Assembly: GCF_032854445.1 (NCBI RefSeq) | Contig: NC_088302.1 | Span: 26,251,080-26,315,079, forward strand | DNA from: Liolophura sinensis | Lineage: Eukaryota > Mollusca > Polyplacophora > Chitonida > Chitonidae | Direction: 5' to 3' | Length of the DNA stretch: 64,000 nucleotides | Shown here: one piece after another, positions 4,158 through 58,594 of the stretch | How positions within the stretch are numbered: the stretch's first letter is position 1 | Layout of the letters: each line of letters starts with the position of its first letter | Translations under genes and position numbers: made by a program | The notes under the pieces: generated by a model | What the model was told of the DNA's origin: nothing | Databases searched by the model: none | Seen by the model: only the letters and a program-made list of their open reading frames with translations

Positions 4158-4235
4158 CTTGAATGAAGAATATTTCACTTATACGACGGCGACCAGCATT
4201 AGGGTGGGAAGAAACCTGGGGAAAACCCAAGACCA
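4158..4235 (-). mobile_element. SINE 3' fragment, older, interrupted
   Basis: This is a minus-strand piece of the common SINE (AATATTTCACTTATACGACG followed by the conserved CAGCATTA block). It ends abruptly at 4235, where the AAAT tail of a second, same-orientation SINE begins. The second copy either inserted into or recombined with this one. Confidence 0.75.
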
Positions 4236-5430: not shown

Positions 5431-5449
5431 ACTGGCGATGAATTTATAC

Positions 5450-19437: not shown

Positions 19438-20408
19438 TAAACTTTGTTCATGTTTGAGTAGTTCGCTCTTTAGACTAGGAATTCTTGTGCAATATTGCCA
19501 GTGGAAGGTTATTTTTTGTTTCAACGGCTTCCTGTTATCTAACCACTGATTTTATACCATGTTCTGTTTTCTCTGTCATCTAATAACGTGTGTCACAGGG
19601 GTGTTTCGCATTTAGCACATTGTCCAACTACTTCAGTTATACGTTTTGCACGTATGTGAACAATATCTTCTCGCCCAATTAATTTGAAAGTTTAATTCCC
19701 CTGCCTTCCACCAGACACCCGACGTTGACCCCTTCTTGCAGATCGTGCGCCTCTGTCATGTCTACTGATGTAAATTTATTTCCTTACTCACCCTTCTACC
19801 CTTAAAGCAGCTCGAAACAGTTGAAATCTGCGGATTATTTTCTGATTTTTTATTAGTCTTATTTACCGGGTTAACGGCACTGTGTCCAGCTAATGTAAAG
19901 CGCTGATTTTGACAGATTATCAGAAAAAAAAGTTGTCAAAGGTTGAATGTAGAAATCTAAGCCAAATTTGTCACAAAATTTATTTGCCTTGCCCTCAGTA
20001 AAGGAATTTTGCGCTCAAGTTAGACAAAGCAATCTGGTGACCCCCATTTCGTATTTGATATTTTGCATTCATCATTTGTATAATTCAGCTAATCTGTTTC
20101 ACCTTATTGGTAAACGTTCTCATTAGATGTATAGCATTCGTGTCTTTAGACCGAGCTATTCATCCGAAAATGTCTTCAGGAGAAATCAAAGGACTCTTTT
20201 CTACCTCCAAACAAAGGTTCATTTGAGTTCGATCCATGTTAGTATTTCTGACATCGAAAAGAAGGCATTCCTTTCAAACATTTTCCTTACTGCCTTATTC
20301 ATACTTTCTATCCTCTTCCACAGGGATTTTTTTAAATATCCAATGTATATCTCTTTCAGATCTCCACATGTTCTGTTAGTACTTCTTTGTTACACCCTAC
20401 CCAGTTGA

Positions 20409-20670
20409 TTTATTTATTTATTTGGTGTTTTACGCCGTACTTAAGAATATTTCATTTCTCCGACGGCGGCCAGCATTATGGTGGGTGGAAACTGGGGAAA
20501 CCCACGACCATCCGCAGGTTGCTGACAGACCTTCCCACTTACAGCCGGAGAAGAAGCCAGCATGAGCTGGACTTGAACTCACAGCGACCGCATTGGTGAG
20601 AGGCTCCTGGGTCATTACGCTGCGCTAGCGCGCTAACCGACTGAGCCACGGAGCCCCCCCCCCCTCCCCC
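20409..20670 (-). mobile_element. Full-length SINE with 5' poly(G) and target-site duplication
   Basis: Read on the minus strand: a G-rich run (about 18 of 19 bases are G, at 20652-20670), GCTCCGTGGCTCAGTCGG, the B-box-like region, the body, and a GGCGTAAAACACC end with an AAAT tail. The flanks carry CTACCCAGTTGA at 20397-20408 and CTACTCAGTTGA at 20671-20682, a 12-bp target-site duplication with one mismatch. The G-run lies inside the duplication and therefore arrived with the element. Confidence 0.87.
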
Positions 20671-25619: not shown

Positions 25620-25780
25620 GATTCATTTATTTGGATTGGTGTTTTACGTAGAATACTTCACTTATACGATGGAGGCCAATATTATGGTTGGAGGAAAGCG
25701 GGCGTGTAGAGCCGATGGGAGCCGATGGTTGCTGACAGACCTCCCCACAAATGGTCGAAGAGGAAACCAACATGAGCAGG
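25620..25780 (-). mobile_element. Decayed SINE, 5'-truncated
   Basis: TTATTTGGATTGGTGTTTTA, then a diverged ACTTCACTTATACGATGGAG block and the region up to CAACATGAGCAG, match the 3' two thirds of the common SINE on the minus strand. Several small deletions show it is an older copy. Confidence 0.75.
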
Positions 25781-29521: not shown

Positions 29522-29634
29522 GCACTATGGTGGGAGGAAACCGGGCAAATCTCGGGAGGAACGCACGACCCATCGGCAGGTTGCTGTCAGACGGCCGACA
29601 TCGTGTAAGTGAAAAAGGTTTGAGCATGGCATTA
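29522..29634. mobile_element. Internally inverted SINE remnant
   Basis: The left part (about 29525-29590: CACTATGGTGGGAGGAAACC and on to the GCAGGTTGCTGTCAGAC block) matches the SINE on the minus strand. The right part (about 29591-29634: GGCCGACATCGTGTAAGTGA and GGCATTAAAC) matches its 3' end on the plus strand. The copy is therefore rearranged head to head. Confidence 0.6.
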
Positions 29635-32541: not shown

Positions 32542-34481
32542 GTCGCAGTCATCGTGCCAGATAATACAGGACCACAGAAAAGTCGATGCCGTTCATGTTG
32601 TTGACGCGATCGCATAGTTTTGTCCCGTTCACTTGTTTTATGCATCATAAGGACTCACCAGAGTTTATCTCCCTGGATGAACTGGCGTCGGACATACCGG
32701 CATAGTTGTCATGTGTCAACGTCCAACACTGCTTATTTCTCACCCCAACACCGGTCACTCACCCTGTACTATAAGGGCACATACACAACGTATATATAGC
32801 TCGCCTTTTGTGTGTCACTTTTTGGCTTTAATATGGGTGGGCTTGCCTCGTCTCAGATATGGCTCGGACTCCGGCTAACTCCGTCCCCAGCTGTTGCCAG
32901 ATCTCTCCACTCCACTCACACACGCAGTATCAAATAGCATGGCAGCCAGAGTTTCCACTAAGCGAACGACCTACATATGTGTCGTTAAAACAGCTCACAT
33001 CCCGTTTGCGGAGCTGTTAGGCTGGCTGGTTAACCCGCCCATACGCAGAGCGCACACAGGCTGACCACAACGGCGGTTGAATTGGCGCGCTTTTCGCTCG
33101 GCGCAGCTGTCAACCTGTAGCTGGTTTTCACGCAGTGTTCAAAGTCAAGAGCTATGCCCATGTCTCGTGCACGCAAGGCTGAACACGGGTCAAGTACTCT
33201 CCCTGTCACAAAGGTCACAACGGTATCGTCGACTGGAAAACATAACGCGTGTACCAGCACATGTAGAAAGGGCGTGGAATAAACACGTATGGCGTCATCT
33301 ACGAAAATATGACTACATAGTGGCAACGGAATATTTCGTAACCTGGTTCTTGGTATGTGTTACTGTACGTTAGTGTTATTCAGAGAGAGACCGGTGTCAA
33401 AAAGCGTGTTATTTACGGTAACGTATTAGCGCCATTAAATTTAAAGTGACATCGTCGCCCAAATATTAGTTATTTTTGCGTCATTACAGAACGACATGAA
33501 CATTGGGTGTTTTTCTCAAGAAGTAAAAATCAAGCTTTTCCTTAATTCCACACCCAGCATTGTACGTTAAGTGAAAGTATAAAAATAACAAAAAAAACCT
33601 GAAAACTGAAAATTCTGCTAGAATATTTAAATGAGGGGGGTTATCAGTTCAGTCAGAATGGAGCATGTGCACAGCACTCTGTAAACTTCACATGTAAACA
33701 AACATAGCTGATTACACGTGTAAAAGACGGCTTCCTTGTGACAGGATAGGCCAAAAAAGGCGTAAAAAAGAGCTCGACAGGTTGACAAGCAAGTCTAGAG
33801 TTGTAATTGGTGGTTAGTTTGAACGTTGGAGTACAACTGAAGAAAGAAAACGGTCTCACGATGCACGAAGGCGTCGCAAAACTATACTGCTTTACAGGTG
33901 GGTGTCAATGTTGCTGTTGTTGTGGGCAGGGGAACAAACACATTTCTGACTTAGTTTGTAACTTTTTTTCAGTTGTGTTTAAGCTATTGTACTCTGCATG
34001 TATCTGTGTGTATCCACTCATTGAAAGTCGATATCATAGGGAACTTTCCGAACGCTACGCATAGGCTCAGGCCCTTCCGGTTGAATATTAATGAGACAAA
34101 ATGGCTTGCCTTTTTTTGTTTTGACTTCGAACAACGGTAGGACATTTTTTATTTCAACGTGAGTGATTTAGTTCATGAACAATCTTTAAAACTTCGTTAA
34201 GACTTTGTTTTACAAAGACGATTATGTTTTTACAAAAGACGTCATTAGACGTTATTTGTAATGTATTCATTTATTTATTTTCATCGGATTTGCGTGTACT
34301 CCGTACTTAAGAGTATTTACAAAACTGCTAATTCCAGTGTAATTTCATGTACACGTCCGTTAAAATATAGTTACACTTAAACTGGGTTTTACAGTTATAA
34401 AGCGAAACAGATCAGGCGCCAGAATGCCTAAGAGTTGGGTGCCCCTCTCTAAATGCAGCAGTGAAATCTCTGCAGACGAGT
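32542..34481. other. Upstream region of the ZIP gene and gene-free stretch
   Basis: The region 32640-33300 is less AT-rich than its surroundings and could hold the promoter. Short open frames at 33030-33373 on both strands have no domain resemblance. Confidence 0.45.
32791..32798 (-). promoter_or_regulatory. Possible TATA box of the ZIP gene
   Basis: GCTATATATACG on the minus strand lies about 250 bases upstream of the start codon and would place a transcription start near 32760. The position is plausible, but TATA-like strings are frequent in this AT-rich DNA. Confidence 0.22.
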
Positions 34482-34622
34482 ATGTATTTATTTATTTGAT
34501 CAGTGTTTTACGCCGTACTCAAGAAAATTTCACTTATACGACGGCAATCAGCGTATTATGTTGGGAGGAAACCGCGCTGAGCCCAAGTGAACCAACAATC
34601 ATCTGCATGCTGTTGGCAGACG
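34482..34622 (-). mobile_element. 5'-truncated SINE, diverged
   Basis: On the minus strand the 3' half of the common SINE is recognisable: GGCGTAAAACACTGATCAAA at the tail and the ATTTCACTTATACGACGGCA block. A further very degraded tail-like piece lies at 34262-34315. Confidence 0.75.
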
Positions 34623-35548
34623 AGTATGTGTGTAACGTTTCTAAACGCGTGTATATAGATTGAAACTATTGTTTGCGTCCATGAAAATCAAGTTATCTGG
34701 TACAACCAATTAATACAACGTGCAAAAATAAAATTAAACAAAAACTTATACAAATGTCACGGCACTAGCATGAATTTATTATCATTTATTTATTGACGCA
34801 GATCGGAATAACACGTCTTGTTAATTTTAATGGTATCCAATTCAATCAATAATGTTCAACAGTGCTGCTACCATTAATACAATCAAATTCAGATATCCTC
34901 AGCACAACAACGGTTTTTTTCTAAAAAAAAATAGCCTGGTTAGTTAAATAAATGTGGTCTTCACTAATTGTTTAACAATGCCTGGAGGGGTTTTTTTGTG
35001 ACGTATCCTCTGTTTAATATGAAACTGAATTTACAAAAGCTAAACTTTTTATGACTATAAAAGTCATGTCAAACGTCTTACGTCAAAGAGGTATCGTGGT
35101 GAGAATTGCATGTATGTTTGTCTTTGTTAAAGATTTGTTCATGTACGTAGATTTCATGATAAGGTAACGATTAGCTTTCTTGGTCACGAAATCTCATCCA
35201 GTGTCTCCGAAACTTCCATAACTACTTTCGTGGTGTTAAGCACAATGTCATAAAATACTGGTCAGTTATCAGAAAAACTGGGTGGAAAAACAGGGGCGAT
35301 AACTCTGATTAAACTGTAATACTGGGGCATTGTGTACGTATATAGATACAGAAAGATTGTTACAATAACGTTCCCAAAGTAGCTTATCTACAATGTACCC
35401 TGTAACTCAGGCCACGTGGGTAATCTAAAGGTGAGTCGTAAATTCGAGATCAGTGGTGCGTCCAGGATTAACTAGAAAAAATGACGGGACGAGATGTGTT
35501 ATGGCGGTGGTGTGACATCCGTTGCACATGACTGTGGAAGGCGGGAAT
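34623..35548. other. Gene-free stretch before the DIRS element
   Basis: About 925 AT-rich bases with no recognised gene or element. Confidence 0.5.
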
Positions 35549-35662
35549 AATTAATAAATTAAACGAGCCTTACCTGGAAGTTGAAGTTTGATTGGAATTC
35601 TACCAAATGGAAGTCAGGAATGGAGAGATCATGTTAGAGTGCATGCCAGGTCAAATCGTCAG
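35549..35662. repeat. DIRS right terminal repeat
   Basis: 35549-35629 is the inverted counterpart of 35722-35802 with few mismatches: AATTAATAAATTAAACGAGC against its reverse complement. 35633-35662 (through GCCAGGTCAAATCGTCAG) is the inverted counterpart of 40132-40161. The segment therefore contains both the unique outer end copied in the internal region and the part shared by the two terminal repeats. Confidence 0.88.
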
Positions 35663-35721
35663 ACTTTAAAGGCGAATGTCCACGCCTTTATTAGTAAGGG
35701 CGCGGGTAATGAAAATAAAAA

Positions 35722-35850
35722 ATCTCTCCGTTCCTGACATCCACTCGGTATAATTCCAATCAAACTTCACTTTCCAGGTAAGGCTCGTTTAATTTATTAA
35801 TTCTGCCTCACGGAAGTAACGTCACTACGAGACCATGTGAGACTTTAAAG
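35722..35850. repeat. DIRS internal complementary region
   Basis: 35722-35802 repeats the outer right end in inverted orientation. Immediately following, about 35797-35850 (TTAATTCTGCCTCACGGAAG and on to GACCATGTGAGA) repeats the outer left end found at 40160-40202, also inverted. The fusion of the two outer ends is the diagnostic DIRS feature. Confidence 0.88.
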
Positions 35851-36053
35851 CGGCGTGGTCATGAACACCAAAAAAACATAAACACAAAACAATGTTTGAA
35901 ATCTGTACTCACAATTTAATGAAATAACCTTGAATTTCCGAACTCCAAACAAATAAAAGTGAGCATTTAGTACATGGATGTTGTCTCCTAATATTTCTCT
36001 TATGTTGCATCATTTTGAATAATAGGAAACATTAAGCGTGGGATTTGTTATGC

Positions 36054-36758
36054 CTATAGACCCACAACGGGGGAATTAGAGGAATTGTTTCTGTTGTAAA
36101 ATTTCATATAAGTACACTTATTTGTCCACGCGCTACATTTCATGATTTGGTCAATGGGTGTGCCTCTACAAGCAGCGGTAAACTGAGGTAAACGCAGACC
36201 TGGTACTGTGACTGGAATATCGACTAACACCTGTACCAGCTAAAGACAACACAGTTTTAAGATACCTGGAAACACTGTCTCTGCTAAGAGGCTTATGAGG
36301 TTTTTGAAAAGAAATAAACAGTATGTCATTCTCTTGTCTGATGGATTCTGTCTTTGATATGTAGTGATTAAGACAAGTCACTGGGCACTATTCTGGTTCA
36401 GAATATTTCTCCAGCATGGTAGACATCCGGTGTTTCCCGGGTCAACAGTACAAGTGGTTGGCGCGAAATGTAAAAATGAAAGCCTTAACGTTTGCAGAGA
36501 TTGCAACCTCTGTCCCGTAGCTAATGATGTTAACATCACTGTCTTTAGAGTAAGTTCTTCCAATGGTAAACCTCCACTGGGGAGAGTCTTTAGATATTTC
36601 AGAACAATATCTGTATCCCATGTATGCGTATAGGGAGGTAAACTTTGGCGGCGTTCAAATAGTCCTTTCATAAAACGTTTAACCAAAGGATGTGTCCCTA
36701 AACAGTGACTGCCTTCAACAGAAACTGTCGCCGAAAGCGCTGAAGGAACAGTATTCAT
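36054..36758 (-). pseudogene. DIRS tyrosine recombinase, frameshifted
   Basis: The N-terminal helical part resembles DIRS recombinases (KHPLV-like THPLVKRFMKGLFERR, then TWDTDIVLKYLKTL). The first catalytic Arg is in ATGQRLQSL. The second box is HSTRS, an HxxR motif, in a downstream frame that includes the KPHKPLSRDSVSRYLK region. After another frameshift near 36190, the reading TAACRGTPIDQIMKC leads to the presumed Tyr nucleophile in MKFYNR, ending at the stop at 36054. All catalytic residues survive but lie in different frames (breaks near 36378 and 36190). Confidence 0.85.
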
Positions 36759-37079
36759 AGCACTATATCCAAGACCTGATGCATGACACTCTGCTATAAC
36801 TGTTAGAACTTGTCCTACAGCCGGATTATAGAAACTTACATCCCATTTTTCGCAAAAGCACCCACCTGCTCAGATACACATCATACTGTTTGAGCGAACC
36901 AGGTCTCCATGAATCCATCAGAATATCACAAATCACCCCGGACAATCCTTGCTCAGGGAATGCCTGCCGGATATAGCTCCTGCCATAAATCTCAGTCTAC
37001 GGAGGAGAGGGTGCTGACTGTCTGGGTGACCTGGTAGCAGAAGAGTTGTCTTCCCTTGTGGGAGCTGCTATGGAGGGCG

Positions 37080-38715
37080 GATCAAGATTCGCTTAAAGAC
37101 AGGATACCAAACTTGAGTGGGCCAATCCGGGTAGATGATGACTGCAAGGCGTTGGTCTTTGTGCATTTTCTGTAGCACTGCTGGGATAACGCTGAATGGA
37201 GGAAACATGTACAGCACATTAAATTGTGACCATTTTAGTCAGAAGGCATTCAGAGCTCGAGCCTCTAAGTCTGGTCTATAGGATACATATGGCTTCATTT
37301 GATGATTTAACCTGGAGGCAAACAAATCTATTTCAGGGGTAATTTTAAAGTAGCTCTGGATATCACCAAAAAACTTTGGGTTAAGTTGCCAATCAGTATC
37401 ATTTCTGAAATTTCGGCACTGACAATCAGCATCTTCGTTCATTTCCCCTGCTATATGAGATGAAGATAACCAGAGTTGTCTCCCAAATTTGCTTTGACAG
37501 TCTGTTGCATTTACCAGAATGACTTGTGCCAAAATGTTCAAACTTATCGCTGTGGTATTATCTATGATAAGCCTTATGTGTTTGTTTTTCACATCTGAAC
37601 AGAAACTTTTTAGGGCTAGAAACGTGGCAAGCAGCTCTAAATAACTAATGTGATTTTGTTTCTCATTAGGTTTCCATTCACCCCCAGCAGAGAGGTCACC
37701 ACAAACCGCCCCCCTCCCCCGCCTCTTGTAGAGGCATCAGATTTAATGATGATTTTCAGGGCTTGTCATTTCAGATGGTTTCCCAGAAAGTCCTACATTT
37801 TCTATCCACCATTTCAATTCACCCACGTACAGAATCCTCTGACAAAACCATGCTGCTGTCATAATTACCCTTTGCCTGCTTAACACCAGATCTCTTATCT
37901 GTCTCTAGGCCTCCATAAAATAAAAGCCCATAAACCATTGCAGGAAATGTTGAAACAACAAAACCAATGACCATGGGAACATCTCTAATGCTTGGAAAAT
38001 TACACAATAATAGTTCTTGACATGCTTTTTTAATCTTCAGTGCCTTAACTGAACTTACGGACACGGTCATCTCTTTGGAATTCAAAATGAAACCTAGATA
38101 TGGTATTGACTAAGATGGTGCGAAAAACGATTTCTCGGGGTGAATAACAAAACCCAACCGATCAAGCATAGAAACCGTGTTTATAACGTTTGTTTCACAT
38201 TCCGTAAAAGAATGCCCTATCAGTGAACTGTCATCAATATAGTGAGAACAGATATGATCTTTCTTTCTCAGCTCTACATACACAGGTTTCAGAAGCTTTG
38301 AAAAGCGCCCTCGGCAAGAGCTCAATCTATTGACAAAACATGTAAATTGATTAACTGCTCTTCTCCTTTGACTTTCGAATAGTTTTGGTTAGTGGGTGCA
38401 ATTGGGACCGAGTAATAGGCATCTTGTAAATCCACACTGGATATGGAGCAATTTTTCACCATTAGTTTGAGAGTTACATTAAGGGTATCCATTTGGAACT
38501 ACTCAACTGACCGGTTTAATGATTTGAGATCCAAAATAGTTCTGTGGGTGCCATCTTTTTTCTCTCGAACGAAAATGTTGGAAATAAATACCCCTGGCTC
38601 ATGACAGTCTGACAGTCTGATAACCCCTCTGTTCAGAAGTTTACTTATTTCTTCATCAATAATCTGACATTCACGTTGTTCAAATGCAGTCTCTTTTGGA
38701 ACATGATACAGATAT
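37080..38715 (-). pseudogene. DIRS reverse transcriptase / RNase H / methyltransferase-like region, decayed
   Basis: Read from 38715 down, the RT begins with ETAFEQRECQIIDEEISKLL and has a GTHRTILDLKSLN block. The catalytic YIDDSSL is at about 38230-38250, and the thumb-side LGFILNSKEM follows an in-frame stop near 38110. The RNase H part (37592-37239) keeps LIIDNTTAISLN and the NEDADCQCR box. It is followed by EIDLFASRLNHQMKPYVSYR and, after a stop at 37239, FNVLYMFPPFSVIP near 37190. That last stretch is the part usually annotated as a Dam-like N6-adenine methyltransferase in DIRS elements, and I assign it with moderate confidence. Several stops interrupt the frame. Confidence 0.85.
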
Positions 38716-38730
38716 GGTTAATGTTCAAAA

Positions 38731-39983
38731 TCAGTGTTTGCACCATGAATATGCGAGAATATCGTTATGAGAGGTTATTTTAGTCCATTCATTGAACGAG
38801 TTTTTAAGGCATCTAGTTTTGAAATTAGCCACTTTGTGTTCACAATAGACAGTTACCTCTTTCAGTGTAAGATCATTTAACCGTTTTAATTGAGCAATAC
38901 TGTGTATGACACTATTATCATTTACCTGTGTATGTGACTGGTGCATGACTGTCGGGCTTATTCTTGTATCGGGGGAAACTCCTTTGTTCCATGGTTTCCC
39001 CTTCGGGGCGTAATGAGGAACCTTGCCGGGATCGTGGTCGCCCCAACCCCTTTTTGCCAGGTGGCATTCCATCGGCCGTTCTTTTGGGAAGTTGTCTCGT
39101 GACGCTTCTTTGCACACTAGAGAGGACTGCTTTAACTCTTTCAATGTTTTCGGGAGATCATCTCCAAAAAAGTACTTAGTTACCTGAATCCATGCGGAGC
39201 AAAGCGGTTCATATTCTTTTTTGAGTACATTTCTCATGGTATCCCTCCACCGCATATTCATTTCAAAACGAGCATGTTCAAGGAGAGCTATGGCGTCAGT
39301 GCCATACCGTCTGATTGCAACATCATCACTTGACTTAAATTTTGCCGACAGCTGTAGGATGTTCACCACTGCCACCGAAACTTTAGTAATGGCCAGATGA
39401 ACACTGGCAAAACGCTGGTCTGTGCTTTTCTGTCCCTGCCTTAATTTTCTGAAAATCTCAGGATTGTTCATGGGCACAGTCAGTTTTTCACAGTTGGCTG
39501 GCTTAGGTAACGCATCTTGTTTTTCTTTAACCTTTTCAAGAGTCCGAGCTGTGGAAAACCGACCATTCACAAACTTTGCAAGTTTCGGGTCTATGTCCCA
39601 CCCTCATGACTCATTTTCAGCCACCTCACGCTCTATGGAGTCGAAAAAACTACCGGAGTCCGACTCGTTTTCTGGGGTATCAATGTACTGGTCATTGTCA
39701 GTGAAGATATTGTCCGAATCAACATCACAATCGTTATTAGGCTCACTCAGATCGTGCGTATCCACGTTGTCCGCCATTTTGGCGCGTTTGGGTTGTTTGG
39801 CCAGCCTGACCGGCGACTGGTAGTCCATTGTTTCCCGATTATATCCACCTTTAAACGGTTTCCCGAGTCGGTAACCGTGTGGCTGTGACGTTTATTTTGA
39901 TGAACCTCGTCACGAAGTTCTTTTAATTCAGTCCTGAGAGAGTTTAAAACATCCAGCAAAGGGTCGTTAACCCCAGCATGCAT
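38731..39983 (-). pseudogene. DIRS gag-like region, one frameshift and one stop
   Basis: A first stretch (39983-39747) contains a short coiled-coil-like segment (LNSLRTELKELRDEVHQNK). A frameshift leads to the 39828 frame, which is acidic and Asp/Asn-rich. A single TGA at 39604-39606 separates it from an in-frame 279-residue remainder ending at 38731. It resembles the first open frame of DIRS elements by position and general composition. No zinc knuckle is seen. Confidence 0.75.
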
Positions 39984-40131
39984 GGAAGACAGAGAAGCCG
40001 CGCCTCACAACTTCATGCAAAGCAGCGAAGCGTGCTTAAAACTTTATTTTCTACAGAGTCTGCAGAAAAATACACATGTACTAGCTGATTCAACCAGTAA
40101 CACGTCCGTACGATTCGAAAAGCAAGCTTGA

Positions 40132-40202
40132 ACTGACGATTTGACCTAGCATGCGCTCTCACATGGTCTCGTAGTGACGTCACTTCCGTGAGGTAGAATT
40201 AA
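40132..40202. repeat. DIRS left terminal repeat
   Basis: 40132-40161 pairs with 35633-35662, and 40160-40202 pairs with 35797-35850 in the internal region. The outer edge is GAGGTAGAATTAA at about 40190-40202. DNA beyond this point shows no further match to the other end, which sets the boundary. Confidence 0.87.
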
Positions 40203-40554
40203 AATCATCAGGAATGGTAATACGATGTAATGCATTAATGCTTTCAGCATTCAGTATAAGGTCCTGTGGTGCATTTTCTGTTTTAGTTTCACACGATGTT
40301 GTTAGTAAGTTCATTTTAGATACGCTGATATTATTTCGCTTAATTGTGAGAGCATTGAAAAAATTTCGAGATTGTTTTAAACAAAGTAGTAAATATATGA
40401 GTAGATTAGATGTTTTAAAGAAAGTAGTAAAGCTAAAAGTAGATTACGTCCATGAAATGTTTGAAAAATTACGGATCATTAAACTCAGTAAGAGTTATGC
40501 AACAATATGCTTTAGTCCTGTAAATTGCACAGCAATGCTGCAATCATTGGAACA

Positions 40555-42778: not shown

Positions 42779-42966
42779 TCACCTGATGAAAAGGTGAGCG
42801 ACAGTTGGAGTGCATACATTGAACGTTTAGAACATTACGTCATTGCTAATGACCTTGAGGATGAACTAAAAAAGCGTTCAATACTACCCTACTCTCATAA
42901 ACTCATAAGGAATTTAGTTGCACCTGAAAAACCTTGCGAAGACAAGTTTAACTAACTGGTGAAAGA
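42779..42966 (+). pseudogene. LTR-retrotransposon gag fragment cut by a SINE
   Basis: The frame starting near 42779 reads WSAYIERLEHYVIANDLEDE followed by KKRSIL and LIRNLVAPEKP. This matches the gag-like N-terminal domain common in Ty3/Gypsy-type elements of invertebrates. A few residues are missing between KKRSILP and LIRNL, and a stop falls just before the SINE junction. The rest of the element is absent. Confidence 0.65.
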
Positions 42967-43096
42967 CCCAGGAGCCGCTCACCAATGCGGTCGCTGTGAG
43001 TTCAAGTCCAGCTCATGCTAAGTGGGAAGGTCTGCAAGCAACGTGCCGATGGTTGTGGTTTTCCTCCCAGCATAATGCTGGCATTGTAAAAGTGTG
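42967..43096 (+). mobile_element. SINE with internal deletion
   Basis: The copy begins at GACCCAGGAGCCGCTCACCA in the tRNA-like part and has the B-box-like GAGTTCAAGTCC. It then lacks about 20 bases of body and ends near AATGCTGGCATTGTAAAAGT without the usual 3' terminus. Confidence 0.75.
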
Positions 43097-44203: not shown

Positions 44204-47200
44204 CTGAGAAAAGATAAGACATTTCTTGAGATATATAAACAAAAATATCCTTTTGATCCCTACGCTATTACAATGACAATTTATACATGTACATCTATTC
44301 TGTGTAAATGCTCACCTCGTTCTCTGGTCAAGTCATTTTGGTGAGTTTCGTAACGCCAGAAATCGCTTACTATGATGAAATTTAGTTTTAGATAAAACTC
44401 TACCTGGGTGGCTCAATGTTTGTCATTCTCTTCAGAAAAAATAGCGGGTACATAGACATACATTCTACAGTCGTGATTCCCCACACATACATACCACATA
44501 TGACGAGAAGGGAGCCATGATGGATCCTATCCTGGCACATCCCGATGATATCCCCAGTCCCGCGGCCCTGAAAAAATACATCAGACTTCAGACTTAATAC
44601 CTACTGTATGTTTGGTGACTTGTATACACTACACGTACTGAGGTAAATGCCGCTCTGTCGTCCTACTGGATGATATTCTAGAGTTATATGAAGCCTCATC
44701 GGGTTACAAACCTCACAAGGAGGAACCTGTACTATACTAGACAGAAAACTGGATAGTTCAAATTCTATAACAACTCACCTGAAGTTAGTTGGTAGCAGTT
44801 CCGGTGTGTAAAGGTAGATCATGATGAAGGAGGCTGAAATAACGAACTTTCCCACCACGGACACCATCTTCATGAGAATATCGTTAGTTCGGCCTTCTGT
44901 ACACGTACATGTAAGCAGAAGTATTTGAATGGTTTTGGTTTGCTTTGAGAAGTATTATGAACATGACACAGCTACATATATTAAAAACTCGCTCAGTTTA
45001 TGGTTTCCTACGTAACATACTGACAAACTTTGATTTTAGTGTTTTAATGGCGTAGCTTTCGTTACCACCTGTAAATAATCGTGAAAGGAAAATACACACA
45101 ACTGAGACTGGCTTCTTGATGTACATGTATATTTTATAGTTTAATTGAGACATCAGTACTGATTTATTCGAATTGGGTTTTATTGTATTTTGTGATTTTT
45201 AATTATATTTTAGATTGATGCGTAAGTACCTGTGGTCAGACTGAAGGTGAGCGCTAAAAAAAGAGCCACAGCGCATGTCGCGTGTAGCGCAATACACCCT
45301 CGCCTTCGACCAAACCTGCAAGGAGAAGTGACATGTAAATAAGTGCGACAGTTTTGCTATAGTTGATGTAAAAATCATGCCTCAGAAGTGGTTGAGGTCC
45401 GCGGCATTGTACAAACAGACATGGTACAATAGACATGTAACAACAGACATGGCATAACAGATATGGCACCACGGACATGGCACAACAGATGTGGCGCAAC
45501 AGACATGGTAGAACAGAGAAAAACAGACATGACACAATAGGCATGGCATAACAGGCAGCATACCATGATATACAGCAACAGACATGGTACAACAGACATG
45601 GTATAAAAGATATAGTACAACGGGCATAGCATAACGGACATGGCAGAACAGACATGATATATCAAACATTGCAAAACAGATATGACACAACAGACACAGT
45701 ACACCACACATGGTACAACACACATGGCACAACAAATATGCCACAACAGATATGTCACAACAGACACGGTACAACACACATGGTACAACGGACATGGCAC
45801 AACAGATATGCCACAGCAGATAAGGTATAGCAAAGCATGGTATAGCAGATATAGCAAAACGGACATAACGTAACGGGTATGGCACAACAGAGATTACACA
45901 CGGCACGACAAGTACAACGGACATCATACAAAAGATACGGCATGTATACCATGGCACAACAGACATGGCACAACAGACATGGCGCAACAGACATGGTGCA
46001 ACTAACACGGCACACCAGACGTGATACAAAAGCCATGGTCTAACAGACATGGCACAAAAGCCATGACACAACAGACACGACACAACAGAGATGGCACAAA
46101 ATCCATGACCACACAGACATGATACAACAGGTATAGTCCAACAGACGTAGCATAACAGACGTAGCATAACATAGCATAAACATGGCACAACAAACATGGC
46201 ACAACAAACATAACACAACAGACATGGCAGAAAAGGCAAGACACAACAGACACGACACAAAAGACATGGCACAAAAGCCATGACACAATAGAGACACGAC
46301 AGTGAGCGTCCGTGGCTCAGCTGGTTAGCACGCTAGCGCAGCGTAATGACCCAGGAGGTTCTCACCAATGCGGTCCCTGTGAGTTCAAGTCCAGCTCACG
46401 TTGGCTTCCTCTCCGGCCGTACGTGGGACAGACATGGCACAAGAGACATGGCACAAAAGACATGGTACGATACACATAGCGCAACAAACATGGCACAATA
46501 TGTATGGTACAACAAGCATGGCACAACAGCAAGGTACAACAGACATGCCACAACAGACATGGTACAACTGACATGCCACAACAGACATGTGGCACAACAA
46601 ACGAGGTTATGATATTTCTGATGTAGACCCAATGAGTGGTAAATGACTGGGTTCCAGCGCAATAAAGACATGGTACAACAGTTATGCTTCAACAGACAAC
46701 ATAGCGGGCATGGCATAATAGACATAGCACAACAGACATGGGTGAACACACATTCCCCAACAAGCAAGGCACAACAGGCATGGCGCAACAGACATAGCAC
46801 AACGGACATGGTACCACAGACGTGGTATAACAGACATAGCACAATAGATATGGTGAAGCAGACATGGTTCAACAGATATGCCACAACAGACATACCACAA
46901 CAAACGTGGTAGACACACATGGCACAATAGACATAGCATAACAGATATGGTACAATAGACATGCCACAACAGACATGATATAACAGACATGGCACAATAG
47001 ACGTGGCCACGGCATTATCTAATGTAGGCCCAAGGAGTGGTAAATGACTAGATTCTAGTGCCATAAAGGCAAAGAAAGGCATGACGTATATGTCATATGA
47101 AAGACCGCTAACACTGTCCAAGAAAGTTCAATTTAATCTCCAGAAATTTCTTTAACCTACTAAAATGCATTCGAAACTTTGGATTCTACGGTGGCCTTTG

Positions 47201-50200
47201 TCAGCCATATTGGGACCAGTGACGTCACATCAGGTTTTTGCCACTCCAGTCACACAGAATGGAGTCTGAACTATTTCAAATAAAAAACATGAATGTGACG
47301 CCACTGAGTCTCAACCGAACATCGCAGAATGTTCCAAAAACATTTTAAATTCTAAAAAAAACATCGAACAATTTTCATAGACAGTACATGGGAAGGTCTC
47401 TCAGCATCCCGCGGATGGTCGTGGGTTCTGCCCGGTTTCCACCCGTCATAATGATGGCCGCCGTCGTATAAGTGAAATATTCTTGAGTACGGCGTAAAAC
47501 ACCAATCAAATAAATAACTAACTAAAATAAAATAGTCTTCAATAGTATACATTTTTCAATTCCTTTGATTGCCTTTAAGGTGACATGTTTTCCGGCCAAA
47601 CTTACACGTACAAAGTTTAGCATACGTGTGGACCCAGAACTATAATTATTACCACCCACTGTTCACTATAAGAGAACTGCAGTACCATCTGCTGCAGACA
47701 TAGGTGCCACCCATGGCGGGAATCTCCACGGCAGCGCTGAGCAGGACGTTCAGCAAGCGGTCTCCGGACATGGCAGTGGTCATCATGAAGAGGCCCAGGT
47801 AAATCAGGCTGTTGGTAAACCTGTACACACATGACATAATTCAGGCCGTCAAGTAAACTTGTACACAAATAATATAAATCAGGCTGCCCATAATCCTGTA
47901 CACACACCATATAAATCAGGCTGTTGGTAAACCTGTACACACATGACATAATTCAGGTCGTCAATTAAACTTGTACACAAATAATATAAATCAGGCTGCC
48001 CGTGATCCTGTACACACATGATATAAATCAGGCTGTTGGTCAGCTCCTACACACATCACGTGAATCAGGCTGTCCGTGATTCTGTACACACATTATATAA
48101 ATCAGGCTGTGGGCGAACATGTACACACATGATAAAAACCAGCCTGTCGGTCAACCTGTACACACATCATGTAAATCAGGCTGTGGGTTAAACTGTACAC
48201 GCATCATGTAAACCAGGCTATCGGTTAAACTGTACACACATCATGTAAACCAGGCTGTCGGTTAAACAGTACACACATCATAAAAATCAGGCTGTTGGCC
48301 AGCGAGTACACACATAACATAAACCAGACTTTCGGTCAACATTGTATAAATCGAGTCGGTCATCCTGTACACACGTCATATAAACCAGGCTGTCCGTTAT
48401 CCTGTAAACACATCATATATTTCATACTGTCATCATATAGATCAGACTGTCAATGAACCTCTACTCACATCATATAAATCAGGCGGTCCGTTAACCTGTT
48501 CACACACCACATACATCAGACTGTCGGTCAAACTGTGCACACGTCAATTAAATCATCTTGGTCAAAATCTATACACACACCATATAAATTAAACTGTGAG
48601 TTTTGCATGTACACACCTCATGTCAGAAATGGACGTTAAATAGCTGTGGTTAGATTTGCCCAAGTATAACGTTCACAGAACAGGGATATAACTCGTGAAC
48701 TCTTAGTAAATCTATAAATCTATAGTGAGTGGGAAAGTCTGCAGCAACATGCGGACGGTCGTGGATTTCCTCCGGGCTCTGCCCGGTTGTTTCCCACCAT
48801 AATGCTGGCCACCGTCGTATAAGTAAAACATTCTTGAGTACGGCTCAAAACACAAGTCAAATAAATAAATAAATAAAAATCTATACATATAGTAATGTCT
48901 GCAATATTTGTTATACGGGAACAAAGAATCAACGCAAAAATGATGAATGAATTATCGAGAATATTATGACGTGTCCGACTGTTCTATGAATAAGACACTG
49001 AAAATATGGACATAGTATTGGAAGACTGAAGTGTCTTTTATATCATTTGACGATGTGCATGTATAGGCTATTTAAGCTGCAAGACAGGGTCCAGATTAAT
49101 AGGTTGTCTGACAGACTCTGCATGGAGAAACCGAATCTCGCCTGGTATACGCCTTGGCGACAGGTCAGTCTGTGATGAGCTACAGCGAAACCCGGATGCT
49201 TGGTTTTGCTGAGTGATTCAGTGATCATGCTACCAGTAACCTGGAAGCGCCATTATGGTTTACCAGTGGTATAGGAATGGCTCATACCATATTGCCCACA
49301 GCTTTGGCGAGGGTTTTGGCGTGATATCTGTCAGAGAAGCTCATCATGCATCAAAGAGAACAGCATGAGTGCAAAACGTTTTAAGTATAAAGTGAGAATG
49401 CTTACCACACAAAACACATTCCTATGAGAAGAAATCTGGACTTCTTGTGTTTCAGAATGCCGAAGACGTTGTATTTCACAACGACGTCCGTATCCTGGGC
49501 CTGAGAATGTTTCTCCGTGGGGATCTCTCCTTCGGGAAGCACTGGGAGTTGTTGGTCGAACATGAACACAGAGTCTTCACCAGCAACTACCGGTTTTGGC
49601 TTATATCTGTTCATTTTAGCAATTTTTTCCTGGATTTTCTGAGCTTTTTTGTACTTTCCATTCGCTATTAACCATCGTATGGATTCATCTATAAGGCTGA
49701 AAGTAATTACAAAATGTTATCAAACCGGTGCTCCGTGAGTGTTAAGTTGCTCCATTTATTTATTGACGCCATAGTTATTTAATGATATCAATAAATCCAT
49801 ACTAATATTCATTTATTTATTAATGTATTTTTTATTCATTTATTTATTTGATTGGTGTTTTACGCCGTACTCAAGAATATTTCACTTATACGACAGCGGT
49901 CATCATTATTGTGGGAGGAAACCGGGAAGAGCCCAGGGGAATGCATACCACCAATTCATTCGTGCATATATGATCACTTTAGACGGATGTGTATTATTGA
50001 TTGCTTTACTTCACGAGCGTTTGATATTTTGAAACATTTTAAAGAATTCGATATATTTTAGGAAACAATGGGCCAGGTGCTTGAAAACGCGTCTAACTGA
50101 AGCCCTACTTGCTAACTTATCACCAATTTTAAACGCTATTCCATGCATTTATCCCACTGCTGTATAACAGATATTTGTGAGGTTTAGCAAGGACATAACA

Positions 50201-53200
50201 GACAAAAGTACAAAATAAGACGCAAACCAATGACATACAAGAAGTAGGCTATGATGACAACAAATGGCGGTAACATCATCAGCTGCACATGGCGCCAGTT
50301 CAGCCCATCAAAAGCGTAACCCAGACCGGCTAATACAGTGATTCCCACCCCCCACAGCAATCCGTCCAGAATGATCACGTTACCCCTCATTCGTGCAGGA
50401 AATATCTCCATCATCAGCACAATTTTTACATCATAGTGACCCTGTAAAACAATAAACCATTTTTGATGAATAAAAACATGCTTGTATCTGGTTTTGCATC
50501 ACTGAATAACTCGACAGTTCAACATAACAAAGACATTACAGACTATTACAAATACATTGCTATTTGCACTTCTCCAGCCTGATTTGCTATATTTTTATCT
50601 CTTTTATTTAGTTCACGTTTAATCAAAGCTATTTCCCCGTTAAATTTATACATGGTGGAAATGTAATAGTTTGTGGGTAAAAATCCGCATTGGTACGATA
50701 AAGGCCTTCTGACGTAAAGCTGCAGTAAAATGGCAAAATGGTTCCCAACAGCTCCAGTTTATCCATCTATAACAATGGCTTGTGTTTTACATACTCACCG
50801 AGTATTAATACTTTGTCACTGTACAAAAAGGCTTGTGATAGAAATGTCCAATACATATTTGTAACTCACCAAGCAGAAAAAGCCGTGTAGAAAGCGCAAT
50901 GCAAGAAACCATATATACGTTGGTATAAACGTCACAGCTGCAAAAGACACACATTGCAGAGTTCCTGTTATGATCAACATTGGCTTCCGACCAAGTCTAT
51001 CGGCGATGTGTGAAATGACAATCGCTCCAAATGCCATCCCGATAAGATAAAGAGTTTGCGTCAGCTCGCCCATATAACCTCTGTCACAGACAAGATCCCA
51101 CTGAAAACAAAATTGAAATTATGTATAAACAATGGCTGAATGCGCCTAATAATTTATTAGGCACTTATCTATTTATTTAATAGATATAACATGTCTAGTG
51201 TATAGGAGGAGGCTGTACATTTCGATCAGTAAAAACCCATTCTAATACACTGACCAATTTTGTAATGCCGTTTTTTTATCCTTTGCTCCTGTTTTATAAA
51301 CGGAAAGCACTGACTAGATAATATGTGGTTGGTTTTGATACATAGAAATACATAGAAATCTTAACATGTGAACCCACAAGCTCATCACGTAGAGACGGCA
51401 TCAGTGATTTGGGTCAAAAGTGTGAAAGTATGTTCTGTAAGTTAACAGATGTCAATTAAAAACACCCTCGCGTCTTCCCCTACACCAATTCAAGGACAGG
51501 GCAGTGTTATCAAAAATGTTATTGTTTTAGTACAATATCAATTTACTTGATGCAGGGATATTAATTTAATTTTCTTGGCAGAAGATTGTTTTAGTTAGTA
51601 TAATGTAAATAAACAATATTTCAACGATAGACAGTATATGTAATCAGGCTGATAAGGTTTGCATGTACATTTCACCATCCGTTTTCTTAAATTAAGAAAC
51701 GTTGAGAGATTTTGTACCTCCGAAACAAACGACACGTTCTTCCCGCCTTGGTATTCATATCCAAACGGACACGAGGAGCTGTGGTTGGCAATGCTGTCCG
51801 TCAACTCGCATTGATCATTAAAAACGCCATCCTCAAAGGTCTTATTCCTATACATTTCTGGTATAAAACATCGAAATTTCGGCTGGAAACCTGCAATTGC
51901 AATTGTCATACGAAAGAGTTCAGATGATGTTCGGATTGCTACAAGGTATTTCTATAATAGAGATGGTACATGCGCGCCAGTGCTGAACGTCATAATTAAA
52001 CATGAATTTATAGTGTCATACTACAAGTAAGATGACACGATGCTATACTGTGATGTGCTTGTAGGATTACACCATGAGATGACACGATGCTATATTGTGA
52101 TGTACTTGTTGGGTTACATCATGAGGTGACACGATGCTATACTGTGATGTACTTGTAGGGTTACATCATGAGGTGATACGATGCTATACTGTGATGTACT
52201 TGTAGGAATAAGCATGCGGTGACACGATGCTATACTGTGATGTACCTGTAGGATTAACCATGAGATGACACGAGGCTCTACTATGATGTACCTGTAGGAT
52301 TACACCAAGAGAAGACACGATGCTATACTGTGATGTATTCGTAAGATTACACCATGAGAGAACACGATACTATATTGTGATGTACTTGTAGGGTTACACC
52401 AAGAGAAGACACGATGCTATACTGTGATGTATTCGTAAGATTACACCATGAGATGACACAATACTATATTGTGATGTACTTGTTGGGTTACACCATGAGA
52501 TGACACGATGCTATACTGTGATGTACTTTTAGGATTACACTATAATATGACACGATGTTATACTGTGAAGCCTTTGTAGGATTACACTATGTGTTGACAC
52601 GGTACTATACTGTGGTGTACTTGTAAGATTACACCATGAGAAGATACGATGCTGTTCTGTGATGTATGTTTAGGATTACGCCATTAGAAGACACGACGGT
52701 CGCTGTGAGTTCAAATCCAGCTCATGCTGGTTTCCTCTCCAGCCGTAAATGAGAAGGTTTGTCAGCTACGTGCGGATGGTTGTGGGTTTCCCCCGGGCTC
52801 TGTCCGTTTTCCGCCGACCATAATGTTGGTCGCCGTCGTATAAGTGAAATATTCTTGAGTACGGCGTAAAACACCAATCAAATAAATAAATTAGAAGACA
52901 ATATGCTATACTGCGATGCATTTGTAGGATTACACCATGACACCGTTCTGTGTAATATACAGCCATCGTGTCATCGTTTTATTGGACTGTTTCAGATATT
53001 ATCGCATTTCAACCTGAAAAAAGAGGCCCATTATAGAGAAAGCCTATGGAAGTATGGAACGTGTGGACTGCATCCGAACGAGTGCTAGTATACCATAAAA
53101 ACGGCGATATACCACGAAATTATAAGTCGTAAGTACCCTTGTTTTTATTAATAGTGAACAGAGGCAACTAATACAAACTACAAATAATTTGGGAAGATCA

Positions 53201-54836
53201 ACTGGGACAAACTTAGCAAAACAAAGGGGTTGATGACGCTTTTCAGCGCCAATCCACAACCACATGGCCTTGCCGTTTGTATTATTCATGGATACGTCTT
53301 TTGAAGTCAGAATTACACCAGGAATAAAATAAACCTGATTTTAAGCCTTAAGGACAGCACATCTAGAACGACCAAGTTCTATTGCTTTTGTGAATCAAAC
53401 ATTTTAAAGCGGTTAATGTGGCTGCATGGTTGCAAGAGAGCATTGTCAAGCAACCCTATATATTACACACAATGTACATTGTTTAACTTCACACTGACTT
53501 GGGTAAGCTAACCGTGGACAGTATTTATAAATGCAGACAGGTAATCATACTGACAAAATGACAAGCGTAATGTTGTATATACAGGTAATATTAGACTCGT
53601 GTTTCTGAATTCCATCACCTACTCAAAACACTACCGCATTATTAATTCATAACATTTTGGCCAGATTGTATCCTGTTTAGAATTCCTGGCACTCTATCTA
53701 TACTAGACGAGAGGGATTTTTCCACTGTAATAACATTAGGTAGCTTGGACCATTCTAAGATAAACTATATCAATATATATTCAAATTAGGAAGGAATTAT
53801 CAAAGCTAGAAGATCTTTGAAAAACGATTTGCAATAACATTTTGCCATACATGATTACTTCGCAATCAGTTTGAGTTTCGCTGCTACCATCATTAAGTTG
53901 GCAGTTTTTATAAGGTGTAAAAATATGCAATCAGCAGTACACCTTTATGATCGTGATAACATTGAGTTCTAACTTGATGTGCGTAATCTGTGGCAATAAC
54001 TGTATAGCATAGAAATCACTGTCAGTTTTCAATAGTAACTTCATAGAGCGAGGAAATCAAAATAAGATATAAAGCTCTACAAAGTCCTATCTCGTTCAAC
54101 CTGCCGGCCTCAATACGTACCACAACCGACCACCGTTAGCCCGATCACATTTTGAGACCGCATTCCTTTTTCAAAAATGAACAACTTACGTGGGAAGGTC
54201 TGAAAGAAACCTGAGGACGGTCGTTGGTTTCCTCCAGGCGCTGCCCGGTTTCTCCTTACAAATAATACTGTCCGCCGTAGAATAAGTTAAATATTCTTGG
54301 GTACGGCGTAAAACACCAATCAAACAAATAAATAAATCAAAACTGAAATTAAACTTCAGTTGATTTATATTTCTGGAAAGTTAATCAAAGTTAGGGAGGA
54401 GTAACAGCAGCGTTTTGATTGGACTAACCGTCTTATCTTGATAAATAGCATTGGCATAGACAGCCTCCCCATGTGACGTCTTCGGCGGGCAAATCTTAGT
54501 ACGTCTGGATGGACTCTGGGGTTTTTAAATTCACATTTCGGAAAAGGTTAAAGGAATCAAGGAATACATTCAATCTTAAGGAAAGAGAAATGCATATTCA
54601 AACTGAAAAAAGTCAAGTTTAAGGTTAATGGCATATTTATCCCAGTTAAACCAGGAGGTAAGTCTCGCTGCTTCTGTCGATTTTATAAACCTACCTATAA
54701 CCAAAATGTTCATCGAAATGAATGACGTCATAATCTGACTGAGGCTTAGGACAGTCCACTGTATGATATGCCATTTTCCTGGATGCACAAAGACTTCGCT
54801 ACGAACGATAGGTGCACAGCCCTCATCAGCTGCCAT
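43949..54836 (-). CDS. SLC22-family organic ion transporter, ten exons
   Basis: Exons: 54836-54695, 51890-51718, 51100-50870, 50441-50239, 49696-49406, 47820-47686, 45315-45230, 44896-44779, 44567-44495, 44203-43949. They sum to 1707 bases, 568 codons plus stop, and every junction keeps GT-AG and phase. The family moves organic cations, anions or carnitine across the plasma membrane. TM1 is in exon 1 (about 24-47). A large Cys-rich extracellular loop (49-105) has three N-glycosylation sequons and ends in the family motif FVSE-WDLVCDRGYMGELTQ. The MFS motif ADRLGRKP is at 138-145. The loop before TM7 begins DESIRWL (the usual ESPRWL, with Ile for Pro). WFGRRRG is at 392-398 and YTPELLPTNFRAAGLG follows in the last third. 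The ATG has A at -3 and G at +4. Substrate cannot be read from sequence. Introns hold three minisatellite arrays and six SINE pieces. Confidence 0.93.
44495..44567 (-). CDS. SLC22-like gene, exon 9
   Basis: A 73-base exon encoding AAGLGISSGCARIGSIMAPF, the family's conserved helix after the ELxPT-R motif. Donor gtatgt follows TATGTG. Confidence 0.88.
44779..44896 (-). CDS. SLC22-like gene, exon 8
   Basis: Encodes VGKFVISASFIMIYLYTPEL, a hallmark SLC22 stretch. Acceptor gtacag, donor gtgagt. Confidence 0.9.
45230..45315 (-). CDS. SLC22-like gene, exon 7
   Basis: Encodes FGRRRGCIALHATCAVALFL and the rest of a TM helix. The preceding Trp codon is split across the junction with exon 6. Donor gtactt. 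Confidence 0.88.
45420..46300. repeat. 15-bp minisatellite, part 1, in SLC22 intron 6
   Basis: The units are variants of ACATGGCACAACAG. Being a multiple of three, the unit gives long Cys/Val/Met-rich minus-strand open frames of up to 299 codons that are not genes. Confidence 0.93.
46305..46432 (+). mobile_element. 5' half of a SINE inside the 15-bp array
   Basis: The copy has the tRNA-like head (GTCCGTGGCTCAGCTGGTTA) and B-box-like region, and stops at GCCGTACGTGGGA, where array units resume. Loss of the 3' half is unusual for a retroposed SINE and implies later rearrangement. Confidence 0.85.
46433..47000. repeat. 15-bp minisatellite, part 2, with internal duplication
   Basis: The same ACATGGCACAACAG-type units continue. 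A non-array motif (GAGTGGTAAATGACT and neighbours) at about 46612-46670 recurs at about 47010-47065, so a stretch of about 400 bp was duplicated. Confidence 0.9.
47387..47518 (+). mobile_element. 3' half of a SINE in SLC22 intron 6
   Basis: The copy starts at GTACATGGGAAGGTCTCTCA and runs to the conserved end and an AAAT tail. Its break point matches that of the 5' half at 46305-46432. Confidence 0.85.
47686..47820 (-). CDS. SLC22-like gene, exon 6
   Basis: Encodes FTNSLIYLGLFMMTTAMSGD and the next helix. Its first 21 bases and the acceptor just upstream are repeated in the minisatellite that fills the adjacent intron. Confidence 0.9.
47797..48620. repeat. 37-39-bp minisatellite derived from the exon 6 acceptor
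   Basis: The unit is about ATAAATCAGGCTGTTGGTAA then ACCTGTACACACATGAT, about 22 copies. The first unit overlaps the acceptor and first 21 bases of SLC22 exon 6. The copy at 47912-47957 repeats that boundary exactly. Divergence grows with distance from the exon. Confidence 0.93.
48724..48878 (+). mobile_element. 5'-truncated SINE in SLC22 intron 5
   Basis: The 3' half of the common SINE, from AGTGGGAAAGTCTGCAGCAA to the TACGGCTCAAAACACAAGTC end and an (AAAT)n tail. Confidence 0.85.
49406..49696 (-). CDS. SLC22-like gene, exon 5
   Basis: The longest exon (291 bases) encodes the central cytosolic loop. It starts with LIDESIRWL and a basic GKYKKAQKIQEKIAKMN stretch, and ends in SRFLLIGMCFV at the start of TM7. 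Confidence 0.9.
49838..49952 (-). mobile_element. 5'-truncated SINE in SLC22 intron 4
   Basis: The minus-strand 3' part only: AAAT tail, GGCGTAAAACACCAATCAAA, then the body as far as the GAAACCGGGAAGAGCCCAGG block. Confidence 0.83.
50239..50441 (-). CDS. SLC22-like gene, exon 4
   Basis: Encodes TM4-TM6 of the first half: MMEIFPARMRGNVIILDGLL and LMMLPPFVVIIAYF. The donor is gtatgt after TTCTT. An uninterrupted open frame runs past the donor but is intronic. Confidence 0.88.
50870..51100 (-). CDS. SLC22-like gene, exon 3
   Basis: Encodes WDLVCDRGYMGELTQTLYLI and the ADRLGRKP signature, through FLALRFLHGFF. Acceptor ttttcag, donor gtgagt. Confidence 0.92.
51718..51890 (-). CDS. SLC22-like gene, exon 2
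   Basis: Encodes the large extracellular loop: CFIPEMY, sequons NKT, NHS and NVS, two further Cys, and FVSE at the donor gtacaa. Acceptor caattgcag. Confidence 0.88.
51990..52930. repeat. 47-bp minisatellite in SLC22 intron 1, about 16 copies
   Basis: The unit is about TGACACGATGCTATACTGTG, ATGTACTTGTAGGATTACAC, CATGAGA. A SINE at 52696-52892 lies between two units. The unit is unrelated in sequence to the 47-bp block B unit. Confidence 0.93.
52696..52892 (+). mobile_element. 5'-truncated SINE inside the intron 1 array
   Basis: The copy begins CGGTCGCTGTGAGTTCAAAT and runs to the intact 3' end GGCGTAAAACACCAATCAAA and tail, with array units on both sides. Confidence 0.87.
52931..54188. other. 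Remainder of SLC22 intron 1, no feature seen
   Basis: AT-rich, with no gene or clear element. Confidence 0.5.
54189..54338 (+). mobile_element. 5'-truncated SINE, diverged, in SLC22 intron 1
   Basis: The 3' half from ACGTGGGAAGGTCTGAAAGA to GGCGTAAAACACCAATCAAA and an AAAT tail, with several substitutions and a small deletion. Confidence 0.82.
54695..54836 (-). CDS. SLC22-like gene, exon 1
   Basis: Encodes residues 1-47 from ATG at 54836, including the first TM helix (IIQWTVLSLSQIMTSFISMN). The donor gtaggt follows ATAG and joins exon 2 in phase to give a Gly codon. It was linked to exon 2 by phase and family architecture across a 2.8-kb intron. Confidence 0.8.
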
Positions 54837-56025: not shown

Positions 56026-56038
56026 TATTAATGATGGA

Positions 56039-56305
56039 TTTACTTATTTATTTGATTGGTGTTTTACGCCGTACTCAAGAATATTTCACTTATACGACGG
56101 CGGCCAGCATTATGGTGGAAGGAAACCGGACAGAGCCCAGGGGAAACCCACGACCATCCGCAGGTTGCTAACAGACCTTCCCACGTACGGCCGGAGAGGA
56201 AGCCAGCATGAGCTGGACTTGAACTCACAGCGACCGCATTGGTGAGAGGCTTCTGGGTCATTACGCTGCGCTAGCGCGCTAACCAACTGAGCCACGGAGG
56301 CCTCT
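56039..56305 (-). mobile_element. Full-length young SINE with perfect 13-bp target-site duplication
   Basis: Minus-strand copy from AGAGGCCTCCGTGGCTCAGT through the B-box-like GAGTTCAAGTCC to GGCGTAAAACACCAATCAAA and an AAAT tail. It is bounded by TATTAATGATGGA at 56026-56038 and 56306-56318. The perfect duplication and low divergence make it the youngest copy here. Confidence 0.93.
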
Positions 56306-58488: not shown

Positions 58489-58594
58489 TCCGTGGCCTAG
58501 CGGTAAGAGAACTACCGTGGGTTTCTCCTCCCGGATTCCTCCCACCATAATGCTGGCCGCCGTTGAATAAGTGAAATATTCTTGAGTGAGGCGC
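58489..58594 (+). mobile_element. Internally deleted SINE after the G-run
   Basis: The head CTCCGTGGCCTAGCGGTAAG joins directly to the body at GTGGGTTTCTCCTCCCGGAT and ends near TATTCTTGAGTGAGGCG. The B-box region is missing and no tail or target-site duplication is visible. Confidence 0.7.

Follow-up and report, generated by a model that had tools for sequence, protein, structure and literature searches.

The window analysed here, a stretch of 64,000 nucleotides from the mollusc Liolophura sinensis (NC_088302.1, positions 26,251,080 to 26,315,079 of the forward strand), contains an element with the organization of a DIRS1-like retrotransposon. The whole element occupies 35549..40199 on the minus strand (5' end 40199, 3' end 35549; 4651 bp), and its parts are listed in Table 1. 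Read on the minus strand, ATTCTACC starts the element at 40199 and TTATTAATT closes it at 35549, and both end trinucleotides are ATT (40199-40197 at the start and 35551-35549 at the end).

The coding regions follow one another on the minus strand in the order gag, reverse transcriptase (RT), RNase H, methyltransferase-like and tyrosine recombinase, over several broken frames. This order, proposed in an earlier note on this DNA, is directly observed. The motifs YIDD, ELLA, DLFA, FPPFS, ATGQR, HSTR and FYNR occur in the expected order, and we take ELLA, DLFA, FPPFS, ATGQR and FYNR to be motifs of the respective domains. All coding regions are broken, gag by one stop, pol by stops and frame changes, and the recombinase by division over four pieces. 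Decay with an intact recombinase signature had been claimed before, and the R, HxxR and Y residues were indeed found in ATGQR, HSTR and FYNR. In the available text of Piednoel 2011 (PMC3266345), the motifs YL/IDD and HSTR are named in 25 and 13 of 28 elements, respectively; the RT region here carries the YIDD form of Y(L/I)DD.

When ten translated pieces were searched against Pfam profiles at E up to 1, four gave any match. The recombinase piece with HSTR matched PF00589 above the Pfam cutoff (29.0 bits against 27.1, E 1e-6), and the RT piece matched PF00078 at E 0.0011, below the cutoff. The larger gag piece had SIR2 as its sole match (E 0.039, below cutoff), an unrelated model. With four of ten pieces matched, one of them to this unrelated model and one only weakly, Pfam alone is insufficient to identify a DIRS element. 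Sequence searches of the PDB with four pieces returned 0, 1, 0 and 2 hits (best E 0.17), nothing meaningful, and scans of viral contigs (four) and of prokaryote genomes (one) confirmed no relative.

Ends and internal complementary region

Three inverted matches define the ends of the element and its internal complementary region (ICR). The right terminus (35549-35629) is identical to the right ICR (35722-35802) at 74 of 81 positions without gaps, the left terminus (40157-40202) is identical to 35797-35842 at 44 of 46 positions, and the terminal repeats (35589-35662 and 40133-40207) are identical in 60 of 77 columns, five of the columns being gaps. The observed scores of the right, left and terminal-repeat pairs were 127, 82 and 65, compared with best scores of 29, 32 and 29 after dinucleotide shuffling (1000 shuffles per pair), and no shuffle reached the observed score for any of the three. 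The matches reported in the earlier note are thus real, with small shifts of coordinates, and its A-B / A'-C / C-B layout is present. Two of its boundaries moved. The outer left end had been placed at 40160-40202; the inverted match holds (40157-40202), but the element ends at 40199, not 40202, because the next three bases vary among three copies of the family. The pairing of 35633-35662 with 40132-40161 also holds, but the core starts at 35625 and 40170 rather than at 35633 and 40161.

The conserved core of the inverted terminal repeats (ITRs), 35625-35662 and 40133-40170, is 89% identical over 38 nt. Beyond this core the two ends are only weakly alike, and each finds its match in one of the ICR halves. 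The two halves, complementary to the left and the right end, overlap by 3 bp at the circle junction AAT, which is the complement of the ATT found at both ends. An extension of about 47 nt at the right end is complementary to the right ICR only, so that the lengths are 29, 38 and 47 nt for divergent ITR, conserved ITR and right extension, and 43 and 81 nt for the ICR halves. No target-site duplication was seen by eye: apart from the junction triplet, the left and right flanks of three family copies have no repeat in common, and a 10-nt match between the left flank and the right terminus was set aside as chance by assumption. An AATAAA hexamer at 35687-35692 on the minus strand falls in the interval from the right ICR to the right ITR. 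If transcription ended just past it, the transcript would be without the outermost sequence on the right, which the ICR model calls for, although a single hexamer makes this a weak indication.

Could these be chance or unrelated inverted repeats next to a decayed RT gene? The window is rich in inverted pairs, with 99 of at least 40 nt. However, among the 25 longest of these 99 pairs none lies inside the element, the shuffled sequences never matched the observed scores, and the ends and the left ICR recur at two other loci, with the right ICR whole in one and mostly lost in the other, which makes such a coincidence exceedingly improbable. An element of the PAT-like or Ngaro-like type, with split direct repeats, would also be a tyrosine-recombinase retrotransposon. 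According to the available text of Piednoel 2011 (PMC3266345), PAT is the sister group, whose main difference lies in its repeats, and Ngaro elements are without a methyltransferase. Split direct repeats were not found here: the direct repeats of at least 20 nt in 35300-40500 are two pairs, one of 36 nt wholly outside the element and one of 21 nt at 76%, of which one copy falls in the right terminus and its partner in the flank next to the left end. Long repeats here are inverted and follow the DIRS1 layout, and assignment to PAT or Ngaro is therefore very unlikely.

The DIRS1-like layout has close published counterparts. We compared five repeat lengths with 21 of the 28 rows of Table 3 in Piednoel 2011 (PMC3266345), as far as that paper was available, leaving out seven rows that have a left extension or for which lengths were not determined. 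The nearest four rows are all molluscan, LgDIRS3, AcaDIRS2, AcaDIRS1 and LgDIRS1 (Lottia gigantea, a limpet, and Aplysia californica, a sea hare), at summed differences of 11-23; the next-nearest is an insect element at 50, and LgDIRS2, the fifth molluscan row, is not among the close ones. These four elements have ATT...ATT ends and an AAT junction, as here, and all are without a left extension. Their divergent and conserved ITR parts measure 30-36 and 31-36 nt (29 and 38 here), their right extension 48-49 nt (47 here) and their ICR pair 39-45 and 86-88 nt (43 and 81 here), and LgDIRS1 is 4680 bp long compared with 4651 bp here. In contrast to them, the present copy is decayed and has a right ICR shorter by at least 5 nt, and the likeness is one of layout alone. 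DIRS1-2 in the same table has a conserved ITR of 304 nt (38 here) and a long overlap of open reading frames, and no such overlap is seen in this broken copy. The organization of DIRS-1 in Dictyostelium discoideum, with inverted ends, an ICR, and gag, RT-RNase H-methyltransferase and tyrosine recombinase regions, is like that found here.

Relatives, decay and identity of the element

To place the element among its relatives, the 609-Mb assembly that contains the window was searched. Itself included, the right end with the ICR had 18 matches, the gag region 15 and the RNase H/methyltransferase region (37239..37904) 29. A 27-nt left-end pattern allowing up to 3 mismatches, for which counts are lower bounds, found at least five places, of which three are left ends and two are ICRs, and which come from three elements: the window copy, a copy at C8:6.18 Mb (L009) and a copy at C13:6.26-6.28 Mb (L010 and L011). 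The left end falls at the same base (ATTCTACC) in all three, with unrelated flanks and with three varying bases beyond 40199. The right ends are common up to TATTA and continue with ATT in the window, AGT in the C8 copy and AAT in the C13 copy, the last being also readable as ATT after one extra A. The earlier note had looked to relatives for a test of the boundaries, and both relatives share the left-end base and agree with the right end to within its last three bases, so that the stated ends hold. At these two loci the left end and left ICR are found again in unchanged order, and the right end is present in both. The gag match carries stops in both relatives; the RNase H/methyltransferase match has stops in the C8 relative and is open in the C13 copy. 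No complete right-end structure was seen in the right-hand parts of three further, more distant methyltransferase matches (L047-L049).

About 20.9 kb of other DNA separates the C13 copy into two parts (L010 at C13:6255000-6262000, L011 at C13:6275000-6281500). The edges of this insert, CAGGG...CCCTG, adjoin repeated TATTAA, which suggests one or more DNA transposons, presumably hAT-like.

Divergence was calculated from aligned coding pieces, with ten comparisons per relative, and the values are low estimates because local alignment skips the worst stretches. For the window copy, divergence amounts to 10.7% against the C8 relative and 10.5% against the C13 relative. Differences at the three codon positions number 109/90/107 and 93/83/89, a flat distribution (chi-square p 0.34 and 0.74), and the copies have therefore drifted as pseudogenes since their separation. 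That the recombinase retains Arg, HSTR and Tyr and the RT retains YIDD might suggest an element that is still mobile. However, all its coding regions are broken, the codon positions differ about equally, the left-end pattern yields three elements (a lower bound), and both relatives have stops in gag; we consider mobility close to impossible.

Because the ends, the ICR and the junction are all readable in a genome that also holds relatives, one check of the templating model was allowed. The ends differ from the ICR at 9 of 127 positions (six junction positions being counted in both comparisons), and about 13-14 differences are expected given identity at insertion and a star-like radiation of copies. 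The probability of nine or fewer is 0.11 at 11% divergence and 0.08 at 11.5%. This internal clock is compatible with templated ends and so fits the published model, given in the available text of PMC3266345, in which the ICR templates the ends of the element. From the anatomy and the published models, we infer that in a live element transcription would start inside the left ITR and produce a transcript without the outermost end sequences. Reverse transcription would then rebuild the outer ends from the two ICR halves complementary to them, and the rebuilt ends would come together at the AAT/ATT junction. Insertion by the tyrosine recombinase would take place at a similar trinucleotide and would leave no target-site duplication. 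The available part of a 2017 review (PMC5633606) describes this replication mechanism as not fully proven by experiment.

Several observations weigh against a DIRS1-like identity. In the Pfam profile search, the RNase H (E 0.14, RT_RNaseH_2) and methyltransferase (E 0.018, PCIF1 model) matches were weak and below cutoff, and no gag profile matched. The gag and methyltransferase regions are assigned by position and motif, not by a significant profile match. The right ICR is whole in the C13 relative but mostly lost in the C8 relative. Finally, a block of 10 nt or more conserved in both ITRs and both ICRs was not found; the two ITRs and the left ICR carry the block, and the right ICR has only 5 nt of it. 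This absence should be weighed beside two facts, that the four-way block is an observation and not a definition in the available text of the 2011 paper (PMC3266345), and that this copy is decayed. Six of the nine features listed for DIRS1-like elements are present, and the four-way block is the one found absent. Taken together, the ends held in common with relatives, the anatomy and the decay, all of them directly observed, indicate that the element is almost certainly a full-length copy, neutral and decaying, of a low-copy DIRS1-like retrotransposon. As a dead representative of a known superfamily it is ordinary, apart from the unusually complete anatomy of its ends and ICR.

End triplets and strand exchange

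The two ends of these elements differ in how often they match the junction. The left triplet equals the ICR junction in all four copies in which a left end was read (window, L009, L011 and L015). Right ends were read in eight, at different places, and both ends in four copies only. The right triplet is ATT in the window, L012/L013 (counted once for their near-identical flanks), L015, L053 and L056; it is AGT in L009 and GGT in L050, and in L010 it is either AAT or ATT with an inserted A. Two of eight thus clearly differ from ATT and one is ambiguous. L050 is two positions off ATT and, as no left end was found for it, does not count as a both-ends case; L014 and L016 were left out because their right ends are not safely readable. 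Short interspersed element (SINE)-like sequence, presumably of mollusc type, occurs in L050, L054 and L015 and, taken with the repeat lengths nearest to those of molluscan elements, points to a molluscan host.

Part of the right-end count came from two pattern surveys. The first, with a motif pattern, found 19 places forward and 3 with the pattern backwards; among five new places, L050 and L053 have a readable right end, L052 has an ICR only, and L051 and L054 showed no DIRS structure. The second found 27 places and 6 backwards; of 11 stretches examined, L056 has a readable right end and L055 a partial one, and in the other nine no inverted match passed the threshold. For the L012 family, a left-end pattern detected the two ICRs but no left end. 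A motif in the right extension, TACCTGKARGNTGAAGTTTG, is common to several DIRS families of this genome that are otherwise divergent (19 places, of which at least L051 and L054 are without DIRS structure) and is possibly a recombinase or promoter site.

In Table 3 of Piednoel 2011 (PMC3266345, available in part), both ends equal the junction in 18 of 28 elements, seven differ at the right end only (six of them at the middle base), one differs at the left only (AcasDIRS1, with a left extension only), and two have two-base junctions. Seven of eight mismatches on the right gives a two-sided p of 0.070, not significant alone, and eight of nine with L009 gives 0.039. One reading, tentative and on balance rather unlikely, is that the ends are not equivalent: the left would always carry the element's own junction triplet, and the right triplet would derive from the target, with mismatches possible and mostly at the middle base, as a footprint of one-strand exchange. 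If both strands of a double-stranded circle were exchanged, as in ordinary recombination, the target triplet should remain at the left or the right end with about equal frequency, and the asymmetry could therefore tell the two modes apart in DIRS integration; if true, it would suit integration from a single-stranded complementary DNA (cDNA) substrate. Malicki et al. 2020 reportedly describe, judging by the title, linear single-stranded cDNA intermediates of DIRS-1, and their experiments are said to have shown that the ICR is needed. Small numbers, possible later mutation of right ends and annotation choices in the published table count against one-strand exchange. So does the 2017 review (PMC5633606), which in its available part reports verified circular intermediates and uses a double-stranded circle in its model. 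No discussion of an end asymmetry was found in the part of the DIRS literature surveyed, which does not include the most relevant papers, and the available part of PMC6387122 makes no mention of target triplets.

Feature coordinates and other sequences in the window

Table 1. Parts of the DIRS1-like element and copies of a dispersed repeat, in window coordinates
Feature	Position	Strand	Remarks
Left terminus, 67 nt	40133..40199	-	divergent ITR ~40171-40199, conserved 40133-40170
gag region	38731..39891	-	one frame, one stop; no gag profile match
Reverse transcriptase region	37819..38717	-	two frames with stops; YIDD 38230-38241; PF00078 below cutoff
RNase H region and methyltransferase-like start	37239..37904	-	ELLA 37626-37637; DLFA 37317-37328; weak profiles
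Methyltransferase-like domain	37068..37238	-	FPPFS 37191-37205; no profile match
Tyrosine recombinase, four frame pieces	36054..36996	-	ATGQR 36507-36521 (Arg), HSTR 36199-36210, FYNR 36090-36101 (Tyr); PF00589
Left ICR, complementary to left end	35800..35842	-	44/46 over 35797-35842
Circle junction AAT (element strand), overlap of ICRs	35800..35802	-	
Right ICR, complementary to right end	35722..35802	-	74/81 with 35549-35629
Right terminus, 114 nt	35549..35662	-	extension ~35549-35595, divergent ITR to 35624, conserved 35625-35662
Dispersed ~270-bp repeat	1-75, 332-600, 4166-4494, 8432-8637, 20405-20658, 25621-25780		
Dispersed ~270-bp repeat	29522-29592, 34481-34621, 42962-43067, 46306-46428, 47384-47525, 48725-48876		
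Dispersed ~270-bp repeat	49832-49941, 52697-52891, 54187-54337, 56038-56305, 58525-58594, 63664-63861		

Rfam and ARAGORN scans of the window found nothing. A dispersed repeat of about 270 bp is present as 18 copies or pieces, several of which adjoin tandem arrays: one array ends at 8430 and a repeat begins at 8432, another ends at 52696 and a repeat begins at 52697, and at 46428 a repeat ends and an array starts. The units of these arrays differ (14, 33/99, 37, 40, 47 and 54 bp and others). The repeat has the appearance of a non-autonomous element carrying or seeding unrelated minisatellites, and we take it to resemble pearl/CvA or HINE elements. Near back-to-back minisatellites fill about 7 kb at 6731-13878, with strong strand asymmetry and a GC skew down to -0.60. 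Two frames lie on the minus strand outside the element: one of 233 codons at 4828-5529 has weak, below-cutoff matches to immunoglobulin domains (best E 9.3e-05), and one of 378 uninterrupted codons at 31456-32592 matches the ZIP zinc transporter family (PF02535, E 4.7e-40).

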